Assembly (NCBI RefSeq): GCF_950295315.1
Contig: NC_080164.1
Coordinates: 56,683,296-56,747,295, forward strand
Reading direction: 5' to 3'
DNA length: 64,000 nucleotides
Source of the DNA: Erinaceus europaeus
Lineage: Eukaryota > Chordata > Mammalia > Eulipotyphla > Erinaceidae
The translations under genes were made by a program, and so were the position numbers. Below, one piece after another: positions 4,036 to 60,718 of the stretch. The stretch's first letter is position 1; each line of letters starts with the position of its first letter. Under the pieces are notes generated by a model that saw only the letters and a list, made by a program, of their open reading frames with translations, was not told where the DNA came from and made no database searches.

Positions 4036-5373
4036 CTTTCTTTCCTTCTTTCTTTCTTTCTTTCTTTCTTTTTTTTTAAATAAGCAAGCCATTTATTTAT
4101 TTCTCATTTCTTTTTTATATTTATTTATTTTCCCTTTTGTTGCCCTTGTTGTTTTATTGTTGCAGTTATTATTGTTGTTGTTATTGTTGTTCTGGATAGG
4201 AGAGAAATGGAGAGAAGGAGGGGAAGACAGAGAGGGTGAGGGAAAGATAGACACCTGCAGACCTGCTTCACCGCCTGTGAAGCGACTCCCCTGCAGGTGG
4301 GGAGCCGGGGGCTCGAACTGGGATTGTTAAGCTGGTCCTTGCACTTTGCGCCACGTGTGCTTAACCCGCTGCACTACAGCCTGACTCCCCCTATATTTCT
4401 TTTTTCAACTTTTTTTTTTTGTTTATAAAAAGGAGACACTGACAAACCATAGGATAAGAGAGGTACAACTCCACACAATTAGACCACCAGAACTCTGTAT
4501 CCCATCCCCTCCCCCGATAGCTTCCCTATTCTTTATCCCTCTGGGAGTATGGGCCCAAGGTCATTATGGGGTGCAGAAGGTGGAAAGTCTGGCTTCTGTA
4601 ATTGCTTCCCCAGTGAACATGAACACTGACAGGTTGATCCATACTCTCAGCAAGTCTGTCTCTTTCCTTAGTGGGGCAGGGTTCTGGGGAATTGGGCTCC
4701 AGGACACATTGGTGGGATTGTCTGTCCAGGGAAGTCAGGTTGGCATCATGCTAGCATCTGGAACCTGGTGCTGAAAAGAGAGTTAACATACAAAGCCAAA
4801 CAAATTGTTGACTAATCATGAACCTAAAGGCTGGAATAGTGCAGATGAAGAGTTGGGATGGGGGTGTCTCCATTTTGTAGATAGCTAGTAGGCCTATTTT
4901 AGTTATATTCCAAAAGGCCCCTGACTATACTAGGTTTTTTTGTTTGTTTTTTCCCTGAGCCTGGAACCTGATATGTAGGTGGATCCAAGTTATTGTCTGG
5001 GGAAATGATGTCATGGCTGGAAAAAGGACCAGAAAGTTGGATCAGGGAAGAGAGTAGCTCCCAAATATGGGAAAGTTGTATAAATAACCCCATCGATTTG
5101 ATCTGATCAGGGGCCCATATTCAGCTTAGGAGTCTATGTGACCTCTGCATCCCTGTAGATCTGAGCTCATGTTCTGTAGTCATAATCAATCCCTCTCCCC
5201 AGTGTTACCAGTTATCTCTATCAGGAACAACACAATAGACCCCTTTGTGGGCCTGCATATAACTTTGCCCTCAATTTGGATCGACAAGGGATCAACAACA
5301 TATTCTGTGCTCCACCTGAGGAAGATGGGCCCTGAAATTGGTGCAGCTTGGAACGTTCCTACCCATGACCACA
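4036..5373 (-). mobile_element. Family P retroposon with nested SINE
   Basis: This is the longest copy of a poly(A)-ended family also found at 18.5, 22.7, 29.7, 40.1, 43.0, 44.0, 44.6, 58.5 and 60.6 kb. Read on the minus strand its 3' end is at the left, where the tail complement has become (TTTC)n (about 4036-4078). A perfect 15-bp direct repeat GAAAACCTTTTCTTT flanks it at 4021-4035 and 5374-5388, which fixes both ends and marks target-primed insertion. A SINE-B at about 4106-4392 lies inside the tail region. About 960 bases of body carry no credible open frame. It could be a 5'-truncated L1 3' region or an independent non-autonomous retroposon. Confidence 0.85.
4106..4392 (-). mobile_element. 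Hedgehog SINE-B, antisense, nested in family P
   Basis: A well-preserved copy. The left end is TTATTTATTTTCCC, followed by TTGTTGCCCTTGTTG and GGAGAGAAATGGAGAG, the ACCTGCAGACCTGCTTCACC core and the tRNA-like head complement GCGCCACGTGTGCTTAACCC. Low divergence suggests a recent insertion. Confidence 0.93.
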
Positions 5374-10321: not shown

Positions 10322-10350
10322 GGACATCCTTTTTTAAAAAAGTTTTTTCT

Positions 10351-10539
10351 TGAATCGACCTTCTTGTGGTGCATCCCATGAGTACCCATTCATTGGGGAA
10401 ACTGACAATCCTTCCTAGCCGACTGAATCCACATGGATCCCAGTCACTTTCAAAGCCAGCAACAAGCAGCTCCTGACAGCTTTCAACCTGACCTGTTGAC
10501 TGGCTATGGAAGAAGGGCAAACGCTAGAAGAAGAAGAAT
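10351..10539 (+). mobile_element. Non-autonomous Vingi derivative, copy 1
   Basis: About 190 bases starting near GAATCGACCTTCTTGTGG and ending in GGGCAAACGCTAGAAGAAG. The last ~50 bases match the 3' end of the Vingi LINE at 33.15-33.20 kb; the front ~140 bases do not occur in that truncated LINE. It matches the copies at 45.04 and 59.35 kb closely. The junction is the 'CTCCTGACAGCTTTCAACCTG' form shared with copy 2. It has inserted in the T-rich (3' tail) end of the adjacent antisense SINE-A. The family relation rests on shared ends; internal deletion as the origin is established for hedgehog Vingi elements. Confidence 0.85.
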
Positions 10540-10738
10540 TTATTGAATAGAGAGACAGCCAGAAATTGAGAGAGAAGGGGGAGACAGAGAGGGAGAGAAA
10601 CAAGAGAGAGATACCTGCAGCACTACTTCACCACTCACAAAGCTTTCCCTCTGCAGGTTGGGGACTGGGGGCTGGAACCTGGGTCCTCGTGCATTGTAGT
10701 ATGTGCACTCAGCCAGGTGCTCCACCACATGAGGCCTA
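10540..10738 (-). mobile_element. Hedgehog SINE-A, antisense, host of the Vingi insertion
   Basis: TTATTGAATAGAGAGACAGCC left end, ACCTGCAGCACTACTTCACC core and head complement CACTCAGCCAGGTGCTCCACC. The pair SINE plus Vingi derivative is bounded by GGACATCCTTTTTT at 10322-10335 and GAACATCCTTTTTT at 10741-10754, the likely target duplication of the SINE, so the Vingi piece is younger. Confidence 0.88.
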
Positions 10739-29337: not shown

Positions 29338-29694
29338 CAAAATCTCTCTTCTTAAAATTAAAAATAAATAAGAATCATTTGTGTGTTCTAGTGTACAGTT
29401 GCATCTCAGCCCTGAAGTTTAGTTGTCTGGCAATCTGAACATATAGGGAATAGGGCTGTAGACCTATTCCCTCGTGTGAGGGAGTTAAGGTAAGAATGCA
29501 AGCAGAGATCCATGTAACATGTCTAAGTATATAAAACTGTAAATCAAGCTATTGCTTCTTACATGAAATATATCTACTCTCTTATAGAGACAACTACACC
29601 TTCCCTATTGGCAAAACTGACAAATATGTTTAAGGATGGTAGAAAATCAGGGACTTCAGAATTTGTTTCTGTGCACATCAGAGTAACTTTTTTT

Positions 29695-29975
29695 AAATTT
29701 TAATTTATTTATAAAAAAGAAACTGACAAAACCATAGGATAAGAGGGATACAACTCCACACAGTTCCCACCACCAGAACTCCGTATCCCATCCCCTCCGC
29801 TGATAGCCTTCCTATTCTTTATCCCTCTGGGAGTATGGACCTAAGGTCATTGTGGGGTGCAGAAAGTGGAAGGTCTGGCTTCTGTAATTGCTTCCCTGCT
29901 GAACATGGGGGTTGACAGGTCGATCCATACCCCTCAGCCTGCCTCTCTCTTTCCCTAGTGGGATGGGGTTCTGAG
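29695..29975 (-). mobile_element. Family P retroposon, antisense, 5' truncated
   Basis: TTTATTTATAAAAAAGAAAC tail side, ACCATAGGATAAGAGGG, CCACCACCAGAACTCCG, TTATCCCTCTGGGAGTATGG and TCCCTAGTGGGATGGGG. Confidence 0.9.
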
Positions 29976-31063: not shown

Positions 31064-33202
31064 GCTTTATTCCTTATAACTTCAAAGCAGCTTCCCAAGC
31101 TATTCCTCGTGGGAGACGTGCTAACTATACGCCTTGTCTTGATGCTGAATGTGAGCAACTACTAAAGCAGTATGATGAGTTGGGTGACCCAGATGTGGCT
31201 GACCATCTCATTGCCTCCCTGGATGCAGCACGCCAAGCCCGCTGGCAACAACTCACGGAAAGTCTGAACTTGACCCACTCAAGTAGGAAGGCCTGGAAGC
31301 TTCTTCATAGTCTGGGTGTCGGTAGCCAACCCTCTCCCATCTCCCATCCTCCCGTATCTCCAAACTCAGTGGCCAGTCACCTAACTCAAGTTGGACGTGC
31401 TAAGATCGACCCAGTCTGGAAAAGAGAAATTTCCCATGAGTGGTCATCCCAATTCTGGTTATCTTGTCCATCTCCAAAACTCTCTCCCTTTACACTGTCT
31501 GAACTGGAAGACGCTTTGAAGAGGGTTAAACCGGGAACAGCTGCTGGCTATGATAACATCACCCCAGAACTCATTCTTAACTTGGGCCCCGCGGCAAAGA
31601 AGTGGCTCACTACATTCCTGTCCCACATCTTGGAATCCGAATCTATGCCCAAAATTTGGCGTCATGTGAAGATTATAGCGGTTTTGAAACCAAAGAAAGA
31701 CCCAACACTGGCCGCCAGCTATAGACCAATTTCTCTCCTCTCCGTGTGTTACAAACTCCTTGAGAGGCTGCTTCTGTCATGAATTTCTCCTCTTACAGAG
31801 AAATTCTATCACCTGCCCAAACTGGTTTCCGCCCGGGAAGATCTACCTGCGAACAAGCTCTGGCCCTCTCAACTTACATTGAAAATGGTTTCCAGAAGAA
31901 TTTAAAGACGGGTGCTGTCTTTGTTGATCTCACAGCAGCCTATGACACCACGGTCTGGCACCTTGGTCTCCTAGTCAAGATCTCAAGATGCCTGCCTCCA
32001 TGGGTGGCCAACACTATATCGTTTCTTCTCCAAAACAGAAGATTCCGGGTGCATCTGGGTGACAAGTCTAGCAGATGGAGACTTGTCTCAAGTGGCCTCC
32101 CCCAGGGCTCTGTTTTGGCTCCTACGCTATTTAATATTTACATCAATGACCTCCCAGAAACTTCTTCAAGCAAGTTCATCTACACCGATGACATCTGCTG
32201 TGTAACTCAGGCATCCAAGTTCGACATCCTCGAGGAAACACTCACGAAAGACATGTCTCTGATATCTGATTACTGTAAAAAATGGCGACTAATCCCTAGC
32301 ACTGCAAAAATGGTATAATCTGTTTTCCATCTACACCATGCCTTGGTCTCGCGTGAGCTTAATGTGCAGCTTGACGATACGAGAATCCGGCATGAAGCCC
32401 AGCCCGTCTATCTTGGTGTTACTCTCGATTGCACCCTGTCATTTCACGAACATCTCATAAAAACTGCAGCAAAGGTAGGTGCGAGGAATAACATCATTGC
32501 AAGACTGGCCAGCTCCTCATGGGGCGCGAGCGCTTCCACACTACGATCATCATCTCTGGCATTATGCTATTCCACTGCAGAATACTGTGCCCCAGTATGG
32601 TTCCGTAGCCCCCATGTCCACTTGGTCGATTCCAAATTATATTCCTCCATGAGGATAATTTCTGGAACCATCCGTTCCACCCCGGTTCCATGGCTGCCAG
32701 TTCTTAGCAACATCGCCCCGCCAGATATTCATCGGGATGCGGCATCATCTAAGTTCATTTCCCACGTCTACGCTCGACCGGACCTGCCAATCTACGCGGA
32801 TATCTTCGCCCACCCTGTCCAACGCTTGACGTCTCGTCACCCAATCTGGTCCCCTACGCCTACACTGAACTTCTCTGTTCCAGTTGGCAGTCAGCTGAGG
32901 TAAAGAACAAACACCTTATCACAGATCCCTGCAAGCGTCAACCCGGCTTTGACCTAGCACGTTATGATTGGGCCCTCCTCAATCACTATCGAACAGGCCA
33001 TGGCCAGTGCGCTGCTATGTTCCATCGCTGGGGAGCCAGAGACGACCCGAACTGCCCCTGCGGCTACAGACAGACTATGACCCACATAGTCAACGACTGC
33101 CACCTCTCCAGATTCAAAGGAGGTCTTGAAACTTTACATCAGGCTCAACCTGACGCTGTTGACTGGCTACGGAAGAAGGGCAAATGCTAGAAGAAGAAGA
33201 AC
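31064..33202 (+). pseudogene. Vingi-clade LINE, 5' truncated, inactive reverse transcriptase
   Basis: The element encodes the reverse transcriptase half of a non-LTR retrotransposon polyprotein. An upstream part is open from about 31081. The frame from 31180 holds an AGYDNITPEL motif and YRPISLLSV. After a frameshift near 31775 the next frame holds GFRPGRSTCEQ, FVDLTAAYD (motif A), GLPQGSVLAP (motif B) and IYTDD (motif C) at 32178-32192, where YADD is usual. An in-frame TAA at 32316-32318 interrupts the frame. A second frameshift near 32885 leads into a tail with CPCG..H..C spacing (about 33050-33105) and a stop at 33188. The 5' part expected to hold the endonuclease is missing. The 3' end is a GAAGAA tail with no poly(A). 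Similarity to the hedgehog Vingi clade is from my knowledge of that family; Jockey or CR1-like naming is the alternative. Not functional. Confidence 0.9.
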
Positions 33203-44832: not shown

Positions 44833-45038
44833 ATTACAGGTTTCTTAAAGGTCGGCTTGCCCCTATGATAGGGGGCTGGTATGACAAAAATTGATGCAGA
44901 TACATAAAGGTCAAGATAATTAGTCTCCTGATGCAGGCATTTAATTACCCAAAGGCGTTTGAGGGGAGGAGAGGGGTTGAACCAGTTAAGGCAAAATAGA
45001 AGATAAGCAAGATTTGATGCAAATTGAGGACATCAAGG

Positions 45039-45230
45039 GATGCGTTGGATCGACCTTCTCGTGGTGCATCCCGTGAGTACCCATTCATTGGGGAAACTGA
45101 CGATCCTTCCTAGCCGACTGAATCCACATGGATCCCAGTCACTTTCAAAGCCAGCAACAAGCAGCTCCTGACAGCTTTCAACCTGACCTGTTGACTGGCT
45201 ACGAAAGAAGGGCAAACGCTAGAAGAAGAA
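45039..45230 (+). mobile_element. Non-autonomous Vingi derivative, copy 2, nested in the LTR
   Basis: About 192 bases starting GATGCGTTGGATCGACC and ending GGGCAAACGCTAGAAGAAG. Target duplication GAGGACATCAAGG at 45026-45038 and GAGGACATCAAAGG at 45231-45244 (one base longer). Very similar to copy 1, with the same CTCCTGACAGC junction. No open frame of interest. Confidence 0.93.
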
Positions 45231-45912
45231 GAGGACATCAAAGGGCACTGCTAGGAGTGTGTGATAAGGTGTGTTCTCCTCTGTGAACTTTGAGTAAGTG
45301 AATCTTAAAGTAGGCGGCCATATGGCCTGCAGTTAATGGGGAGAAGTATTGGGGTTTCTGTGGGCTTGAGAGTCAAGAAAGAAAGAACTAAGTCTGAGTT
45401 TCTCCCCTTTGCTCACTGAGACTAACCAAGAGGGTATCTTCTCAGACCTCTATCCAAGGATGGGAGAGATCTCCCTAAGCTCTATCAAGCTTACACATAG
45501 TCCCAACATAATACCTTACATTTTTATATATCAATATTAAATCACCAATAACAATTCATTGAAAATAAATAAAAATAAAAATATCTGGGCCTGGACTTTT
45601 GTTGCTAGGGAGCTAGGTTTGATTACTGTTTCAATTTTTTTTTTTCTGTAATTGGTCTATTCATGTTCTTGGTTTAATCTCAGGAGGGTGGTGTATGCTT
45701 CTAAAAATGAATCTGTCTCTTCCAGGTTCTCAAGTTTGGTGGTATATTGTTATTCATAAAGGCCTAGCATAGTATTTTGTATATCTATGGTTCTTATTGT
45801 GATCTCTCCCCTTTCATTTACAGTACAATTTATCTGGGCATTCTTGCTTTTGTTAGTGGGTCTGGCTAGGATTTTATCAATTTTGTTTACCCTTTCAAAG
45901 AACCAATTGATC

Positions 45913-58510: not shown

Positions 58511-58894
58511 CTGGTGGTGGTAACTGTGTGGATTTGTACCCCTCTTATCCTATGGTTTTCTCAATGTTTCCTTTTTATAAATAAATAAATAATAAATAAA
58601 AATAAAATAGCACTAAAGGGAGATATTGACAGCAACACAATAGTAGTAGATATTAACATATATATACAGAACATTACATCCCAAAGTGCACAGGAATTAA
58701 CTGTAAGTTGGGTTAAAATCATAAAAACTGCCTTTTCAGATGATGATAGTATGGGTTGTAATTTAGTTACAGGAAGTAAACAAGAAACATCTCCAAAATG
58801 TGTAGACTAAGCAGTATGCATCACAACTGAGTCAACTAGATAAGGAGTAGCAATTACGTCCAAAAGTCAACAGAAGGAGAAAATAGTCAAAATC
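58511..58894 (+). repeat. Left arm of a 384-bp inverted duplication
   Basis: Contains the last ~100 bases of a sense family P copy with its (AAAT)-rich tail, then about 285 bases of sense L1 ORF2. By eye it equals the reverse complement of 60335-60718 with six substitutions and no gaps. Confidence 0.93.
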
Positions 58895-59352
58895 CTATTT
58901 GAGTGTGAACCTTCTCTGACTTTTGCCAGTGGTAAGAAACTAAGGGAATGAGCAAGCAAGACACAGACCAAAATGGCTTTCAATGGAGACAGAGCTCCCA
59001 ACTCCTCTTAGGTGTTTCCCCTCTTTAGCCAACTCATGGTGAAGTGTTTAAAAAGGTCATTCCATCTTAGTTTCTTTTTGTGTTCTTAAATGAACTCCTT
59101 CTTCAGATTTCAGCAAAAGTATCACCGTCTCAAAGATGCCTGTTATAGCCATGTTGGCATACTGTGGTATCTTATTGTATAGTTTATAGAAGAAGACTTC
59201 TTTGCTGTGGAACACACACTTATTTTCCATTTACCAAATCCAGTGATGAATTAGTCAGGGTTCATACTGTCTTTTTCAAATAAATTATTAGTGGTTTATA
59301 GTATTGTAAGATAGTAAGGGTATAGTTGTATACTTCCACCAGCAAAGTTCTG

Positions 59353-59628
59353 GATGCATTGGATCGACCTTCCCGTGGTGCATCCCGTGAGTACCCATTC
59401 ACTGGGGAAACTGACAATCCTTCCTAGCCAACTGAATCCACATGGATCCCAGTCACTTTCAAAGCCAGCAACAAGCAGCTCAACCTGACGCTGTTGACTG
59501 GCTATGGAAGAAGGGCAAACGCTAGAAGAAGAAGAAGAAGGAGAAGGAGAAGGAGAAGGAGAAGGAGAAGGAGAAGGAGAAGGAGAAGGAGAAGGAGAAG
59601 GAGAAGGAGAAGGAGAAGGAGAAGGAGA
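59353..59628 (+). mobile_element. Non-autonomous Vingi derivative, copy 3, with expanded tail
   Basis: Starts GATGCATTGGATCGACC and ends GGGCAAACGCTAGAAGAAG, then a GAAGGA array. AGCAAAGTTCTG is duplicated exactly at 59341-59352 and 59629-59640. Its junction differs from copies 1 and 2: AGCAGCTCAACCTGACGCTG, which joins the front directly to sequence as in the LINE at 33143-33160. It is thus a separate deletion form. Confidence 0.94.
59525..59628. repeat. (GAAGGA)n array in a Vingi tail
   Basis: About 104 bases of GAA then regular GAAGGA hexamers, bounded on the right by the target duplication, so the array lies within the inserted element. Confidence 0.96.
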
Positions 59629-60334: not shown

Positions 60335-60718
60335 GATTTTGACTATTTTCTCCTTCTGTTGACTTTTGGACGTAATTGCTACTCCTTATCCAGTTGACTC
60401 AGTTGTGATGCATACTGCTTAGTCTACACATTTTGGAGAAGTTTTTTGTTTACTTCCTGTAACTGAATTACAACCCATACTATCATCATCTGAAAAGACA
60501 GTTTTTATGATTTTAACCCAACTTACAGTTAATTCCTGTGCACTTTGGGATGTAATGTTCTGTATATATATGTTAATATCTACTACTATTGTGTTGCTGT
60601 CAATATCTCCCTTTAGTGCTATTTTATTTTTATTTATTATTTATTTATTTATAAAAAGGAAACATTGAGAAAACCATAGGATAAGAGGGATACAAATCCA
60701 CACAGTTACCACCACCAG
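60335..60718 (-). repeat. Right arm of the 384-bp inverted duplication
   Basis: Spans antisense L1 ORF2 and the 3' end of the family P copy inserted in it. It matches 58511-58894 in reverse complement. The arms are separated by 1,440 bases. Confidence 0.93.

Follow-up and report, generated by a model that had tools for sequence, protein, structure and literature searches.

A broken, 5'-truncated LINE of likely Vingi type in a likely hedgehog genome, from a family whose RNA is predicted to start with an HDV-like ribozyme

Elements of the ingi type carry RNase H, and Vingi is reportedly their sister clade without this domain, as set out in 2011 by Kojima, Kapitonov and Jurka, who are also said to have described 11 families of short Vingi derivatives. 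The LINE family considered here is presumably already known from that work, in which we know of no mention of a 5' ribozyme. HDV-like ribozymes have their parts in the order P1-P2-P3-L3-P3'-P1'-P4-CNRA-P2', and we take L3 of the leader described below to be similar in sequence to L3 of the CPEB3 ribozyme. Vingi-1_EE and Vingi-1_AAl, together with the non-autonomous Vingi-1N families of hedgehogs, are the closest described elements. They likewise combine an endonuclease and reverse transcriptase (EN-RT) without RNase H, placed beside RNase H-bearing LINEs, with young age and short derivatives formed by internal deletion; for Vingi-1_EE and Vingi-1_AAl the likeness is drawn from their descriptions, not from sequence identity. 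Vingi is reported in hedgehogs and reptiles (PMC5753468), and 311 copies under 1% divergence are reported for Vingi-1N3_EE (PMC3183009). Vingi traces reported in human, X12_LINE, are an ancient fossil (PMC5753468), whereas the family described here is young.

Several described ribozymes are relevant for comparison. For L1Tc/ingi elements, Pr77 is reported to be an HDV-like ribozyme; it occupies a conserved part of the leader that the Ingi-group LINE has in common with related short elements. These elements have trypanosomatid hosts and their catalytic activity was demonstrated, whereas the family described here resides in a vertebrate-type genome and its ribozyme is a prediction (PMC4035085). 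The R2 ribozyme is reported to have the same double-pseudoknot fold as that predicted below, with a catalytic C (PMC3774820). Self-cleavage is reported to set the 5' end of R2, and R2 SIDEs are likewise short elements in which a ribozyme at the 5' side is linked to the 3' end of the LINE (PMC3414825, PMC3774820). However, R2 inserts site-specifically in 28S genes, and one account, in the part cited here, reports it as absent from mammals (PMC5753468). The CPEB3 ribozyme is HDV-like and mammalian, but it is reported from a Cpeb3 intron and not from a mobile element (PMC10919898). The human LINE-1 and OR4K15 self-cleaving ribozymes put an association with mammalian LINEs in print, although they are reported to be twister sister-like, not HDV-like (PMC11620745). 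Self-cleaving ribozymes of LINEs and of mammals (one of them in LINE-1) are already known. We did not find an HDV-like ribozyme in a mammalian retrotransposon in the literature searched, which was judged by title and had most subscription papers outside its scope. Such a ribozyme may be new, and this search is no proof of novelty.

We consider it probable that the window (the whole stretch of 64,000 nucleotides that was analysed) holds, at 31080-33201, a broken and 5'-truncated LINE of the likely Vingi clade, from a family whose RNA is predicted to start with an HDV-like ribozyme cutting at the element's first base. In this family, EN and RT share a frame from which RNase H is absent, the 5' end lies at GGGATGC, and the stop codon leads directly into a GAA tail. 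The parts of the window copy, and of three short derivatives (A, B and C) in the window, are given in Table 1.

Table 1. Positions of the LINE copy, the short derivatives and the predicted ribozyme parts in the window
Feature	Position	Strand	Remark
LINE copy of Vingi type, broken and 5'-truncated (retains linker, reverse transcriptase, C-terminal part and tail; lacks leader and endonuclease part)	31080..33201	+	
In-frame stop TGA	31780..31782	+	relative to P0001
First frame break	within 31800..31806	+	overlapping tblastn segments
RT motif VFVDLTAAYD	31917..31946	+	
RT motif SGLPQGSVLAPTLF	32091..32132	+	
FIYTDDICC	32175..32201	+	FIYADDICC in P0001 and P0258
In-frame stop TAA	32316..32318	+	relative to P0001
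Second frame break	within 32813..32885	+	
C-terminal cysteine/histidine cluster CPCGYRQTMTHIVNDC	33053..33100	+	CxCG-H-C
3' end common to short derivatives (C-terminal codons, stop codon, GAA tail)	33143..33201	+	
Short derivative A (LINE leader minus first P1 strand, plus LINE 3' end)	10350..10540	+	
Left target-site duplication of B, GAGGACATCAA	45026..45036	+	11 bp exact; one mismatch allows 3 nt into GGG
Short derivative B (complete leader plus LINE 3' end)	45037..45230	+	
Predicted HDV-like ribozyme of B	45037..45106	+	descriptor and Rfam model; prediction
P1 of B	45037-45043/45066-45072	+	GGGATGC/GCATCCC, 7/7 pairs
P2 of B	45047-45052/45101-45106	+	GGATCG/CGATCC, 6/6 pairs
P3 of B	45053-45055/45063-45065	+	ACC/GGT, 3/3 pairs
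L3 of B	45056-45062	+	TTCTCGT
P4 of B	45080-45083/45089-45092	+	short
J4/2 of B, CTGA	45097-45100	+	putative catalytic C at 45097; directly before P2 3' strand
Start codon ATG of the frame of full-length LINE copies (MDPSHFQSQQQAA...)	45128..45130	+	
Right target-site duplication of B	45231..45241	+	
Short derivative C (leader plus LINE 3' end, different junction)	59351..59538	+	tail merges into GGAGAA repeat
Ribozyme-like leader of C	59351..59420	+	one mismatch in P1, one in P2

The reverse transcriptase motifs from which the sequence-only reading had recognised a broken LINE were borne out by domain searches: the piece at 31764-32315 matches Pfam RVT_1 at E 6e-20, and the piece at 31036-31779 matches the same family weakly (0.076). 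No Pfam family was matched by the two further open reading frame pieces of the copy. IYTDD in place of YADD, a C-terminal CxCG-H-C cluster and a GAA-type tail had also been noticed correctly, and the stop codon TAG (33188-33190) is followed immediately by AAGAAGAAGAA, that is, (GAA)n. Two frame breaks stand as claimed; the single in-frame stop does not, since comparison with P0001, the best protein match, identifies two. The element had been taken to start at 31064, and its 5' end is at 31080 in 15/15 alignments with other copies. The AYD motif has one extra codon relative to P0001. The leader and endonuclease part are lost and there are two stops and two frame breaks; thus, the copy encodes no working protein. 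No target-site duplication above chance was identified for this copy (the longest exact match, 6, is the commonest value in 300 shuffles). The ratio of observed to expected CpG is 0.45-0.90 across its four parts, higher than in the flanks (0.105 and 0.140), and so the insertion is considered young.

The family is abundantly represented among first-look matches in its own genome (2,720,570,532 bases in 1172 contigs were searched). The RT piece gave 12,977 such candidates, a number that is not a copy count, and identity is at least 90% at all 150 of the places scored, one of which is the window's own. The RT pieces of copies in this genome are 90-96% identical. Among ten copies retrieved for their long frames, one (P0258) is open for 995 codons, its frame beginning MDPSHFQSQQQAA after two leading residues, and encodes an APE-type endonuclease (PF14529, PF03372) and a reverse transcriptase (PF00078) in one ORF; RNase H (PF00075) was not identified in it at E <= 1. 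The window copy lies at K2P distances of 0.034-0.054 from 17 other copies, and the 120 pairs among 16 copies of at least 1500 bp, the window's own included, are at 0.0225-0.0614. The LINE family is young. The first 20 residues of P0001 match the element's own minus strand, and the leader of another copy (L006) is inverted; both could reflect 5' inversions of the twin-priming kind, which they resemble.

The short derivatives and the leader did not figure in the sequence-only reading. A, B and C are ~190 bp each and, when compared with a full-length copy (L018), consist of the LINE 5' end fused directly to its 3' end, without the part between them. Judged by this comparison, they are internally deleted, non-autonomous LINE derivatives. 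The final 56-59 bp of the LINE are repeated in them at 10483-10538, 45178-45232 and 59478-59536, with 95-97% identity. In C, the start codon (ATG, 59442) is in frame with the C-terminal codons of the LINE through the LINE stop, a frame of 27 codons. The leader carried by the derivatives and by full-length copies has been lost from the LINE copy in the window.

The leader of B folds on paper as a nested double pseudoknot with P1-P4 and a J4/2 of the form CNRA, in the HDV-like order, and the ATG lies 21 nt past the predicted core. Rfam model RF00094 (HDV_ribozyme) was matched from first to last position by the leaders of B (22.9 bits, E 0.21), C (20.6 bits, E 0.54) and one LINE copy, L017 (20.8 bits, E 0.33), with E-values for 4227 families; these matches are weak, all three far under the gathering threshold of 50. 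A gathering-level Rfam scan of the window found nothing. The short HIV-1_SL3 model matched the 3' part of B and C with a slightly better E-value than RF00094, and this match is taken as chance. Twenty-two distinct leaders with P1, all from copies in this genome, were compared. The putative catalytic C is kept in 22/22, and 424/440 cells are paired in a structure that was drawn from these same sequences.

The alternative that survives best is a plain Vingi LINE, in which the leader would do no more than any structured 5' UTR, or would act as an internal promoter, and transcription would start at the uniform 5' end. We regard this as unlikely. Rfam scores below gathering speak for it, as does the lack of covariation: no compensatory (two-sided) changes were identified among the 22 distinct leaders, which are too alike for such a comparison to have power. 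Against it, HDV_ribozyme is the only ribozyme model matched in the leaders of B, C and L017, and the HDV-like helix order begins exactly at the mapped first base. A strict descriptor of this order is reached from leader nt 1 by 26 of 1,154,629 dinucleotide shuffles, and within the first three bases by 67. The descriptor was written after the sequence was seen, and the anchored question is limited to the first base, which was mapped independently. Without this anchor, the strict descriptor hits the window 10 times, at 5 places, where 217 simulations gave 7.0 hits on average; used in this way it is not special.

The first base was mapped from the ends of insertions. The target-site duplication of B ends directly before GGGATGC. 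Of 40 scored matches to B (605 first-look candidates), 30 loci, B included, were read as short copies (L019-L048). The first P1 strand is kept (at least 5/7 letters) in 18 of these 30, and a duplication is detectable in 15 of the 18. Eleven of the 15 duplications end no more than 1 nt from GGG, although an AT repeat holds one of these, and the remaining four end at -3, 3, 5 and 9 nt, the last (L029) belonging by its duplication to a second class. This class comprises copies in which the first P1 strand is missing (12/30 short copies, and also A in the window) and which start at about TTGGA or TGGA. A duplication was identified in 6 of the 12, and 5 of these 6 end 8-9 nt into the leader. The second uniform 5' end does not fit a single cleavage site and is not explained; under a plain 5' UTR it could be an alternative start site. 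There was no sign that the short copies without P1 form a subfamily, with one core position flagged, weakly, by linked differences.

Longer copies also begin at GGGATGC. In 30/30 of their leaders (L049-L078), the sequence directly upstream is unrelated; the query started at GGG and the best-scoring matches were taken, so that only the upstream break counts as evidence. These are considered longer copies because no element 3' end was identified by exact motif in the DNA fetched. T directly precedes GGGATGC in 23 of the 30, and may reflect the target site, because the duplications of short copies often include it. When the leader was used as query (1138 first-look candidates), 40/40 scored matches were identical over 133 nt. 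Thus, at least 40 places carry an identical stretch of leader, which indicates recent copying.

We favour the reading of the leader as a predicted HDV-like self-cleaving ribozyme with its cut site at the element's first base. In such a system, the element would be transcribed inside longer transcripts, and the ribozyme would trim the 5' end and free an RNA that begins at the element's first base, by likeness to R2 and L1Tc/ingi. The LINE protein may then recognise the common 3' end and tail, where reverse transcription would begin. Target-primed reverse transcription would copy the LINE itself and would also serve its internally deleted derivatives in trans, with leader-plus-tail elements riding along, like R2 SIDEs.

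If active, the ribozyme would explain the exact 5' end of a LINE that inserts at scattered sites, and why an offshoot needs no more than leader and tail to be mobile, a situation paralleled by R2 SIDEs. It would also link Vingi to Ingi through a common 5' module, and it predicts cleavage within host transcripts that carry insertions. A wider view is possible, and we put it forward tentatively, with somewhat more doubt than conviction: a young Vingi LINE, together with offshoots made of ribozyme and tail, may have spread many copies of an HDV-like ribozyme through a mammalian genome, this ribozyme may be an ancestral 5' module of Ingi and Vingi together, and host transcripts carrying insertions may be cut there.

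Relatives of the LINE protein were identified using the window copy read through, with X at stops. This search scored 7997 candidates, and the matches listed are the best 120 of 461; a further search listed the best 120 of 905. There are 461 protein matches at E <= 0.001, and the similarity is far beyond chance. The best match, P0001, is from a 2072-base ENA contig and has 94% identity over 79% of the query. After it, the best 120 of the 461 form one group with ~52-60% identity and another with ~40-49%. Among the matches listed (best 120 of 905), the nearest after P0001 is P0185, with 70% identity over 239 aa. No RNase H match at E <= 1 was identified in any of 8 relatives, 7 of which have EN and RT. 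When longer proteins were targeted (7977 candidates scored), 44 matches were obtained, of which 14 have RNase H (PF00075, from a precomputed column) and 24-32% identity; PF00075 was identified again in 7/7 of those that were re-scanned.

The RT tree has 54 rows, selected from 162 proteins plus the window copy (P0148 was left out as too short). The window copy falls in a clade of 26 rows without RNase H (100/100). The clade joins 9 of the 14 RNase H-bearing rows at 93/87, in a tree in which the outgroup rows are not on one side of a branch and several outer rows carry long-branch warnings. The other 5 RNase H-bearing rows are placed elsewhere, and thus RNase H changes several times on this tree. 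A clade without RNase H that sits beside RNase H-bearing LINEs corresponds to the definition of Vingi; thus, the window LINE likely belongs to the Vingi clade. The sequence-only reading had assigned the copy to Vingi and proposed an RT phylogeny with Ingi as a check. The assignment is upheld by domain content (EN and RT, no RNase H) and by the tree, with identity to Vingi-1_EE no part of the support. The phylogeny gives the expected neighbours, RNase H-bearing rows to which no source gives the name Ingi.

Membership in Jockey or in another clade without RNase H is highly improbable. The joining of the clade to RNase H-bearing LINEs argues against it, and so does the position, outside the clade, of two rows that we take to be an RTE-like RT and a Jockey-like RT, the latter part of a fused Melitaea protein and on long branches. 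In its favour, the Vingi placement was made without a reference Vingi sequence, and I-Jockey, with 4476 copies, is among the African hedgehog repeats of a recent survey that, in the part cited here, does not use the name Vingi (PMC12026660). The I-Jockey elements of that survey may be the window LINE family. The host had been read as an erinaceid from this copy. This agrees with reports that put Vingi in hedgehogs (PMC5753468, PMC3183009), and the genome is likely that of a hedgehog, but one Vingi copy alone does not establish the organism, because human also has older Vingi traces (X12_LINE).

In a quick tree of 229 rows, the window copy falls in a clade of 115 rows (SH-aLRT 99). Only two rows of this clade are host-named in the matches listed, and both are teleosts (Synaphobranchus kaupii and Cirrhinus mrigala). 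Named aphid, sand fly, moth, pseudoscorpion, planthopper and lancelet rows are outside the clade, as is the fish Diretmus argenteus. The nearest named kin of the window LINE is vertebrate, with most rows of the clade having no host name. No relatives of the element were identified in IMG/VR, and the prokaryote genome contigs searched gave one 30% match, in a metagenome bin. One predicted protein (P0055, on a 577-kb ENA contig) has both PF17917 and PF00078. Its first half resembles another kind of retroelement and is linked to a Vingi-like RT, and the protein probably represents two adjacent elements.

It is scarcely credible that A, B and C are tRNA-type SINEs with a captured LINE tail: they are short and seemingly share only their 3' end with the LINE, but their 5' parts correspond, with 95-97% identity over 130-149 nt, to the leader and opening codons of the full-length LINE, and, relative to L018, one deletion junction is common to A and B and another is found in C.

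Other repeats were identified in the window, of which 19.5% is covered by another within-window copy of at least 80 bp. A tRNA origin of the short elements gained no support from ARAGORN and the gathering-level Rfam scan, which identified no tRNA in the window; this test is weak, because old SINEs escape both. Dense short repeats (e.g., at 4196, 9298, 29145, 35265 and 53983) may be tRNA-type SINEs, which are reported to be dominant in the African hedgehog (PMC12026660). An inverted repeat (58511-58894 and 60335-60718) flanks short derivative C, with arms of 384 nt that are 98% complementary and 1440 nt apart. A partial extra copy of an arm is present at 29688-29776 and is just 78% alike; thus, the inverted pair looks recent.
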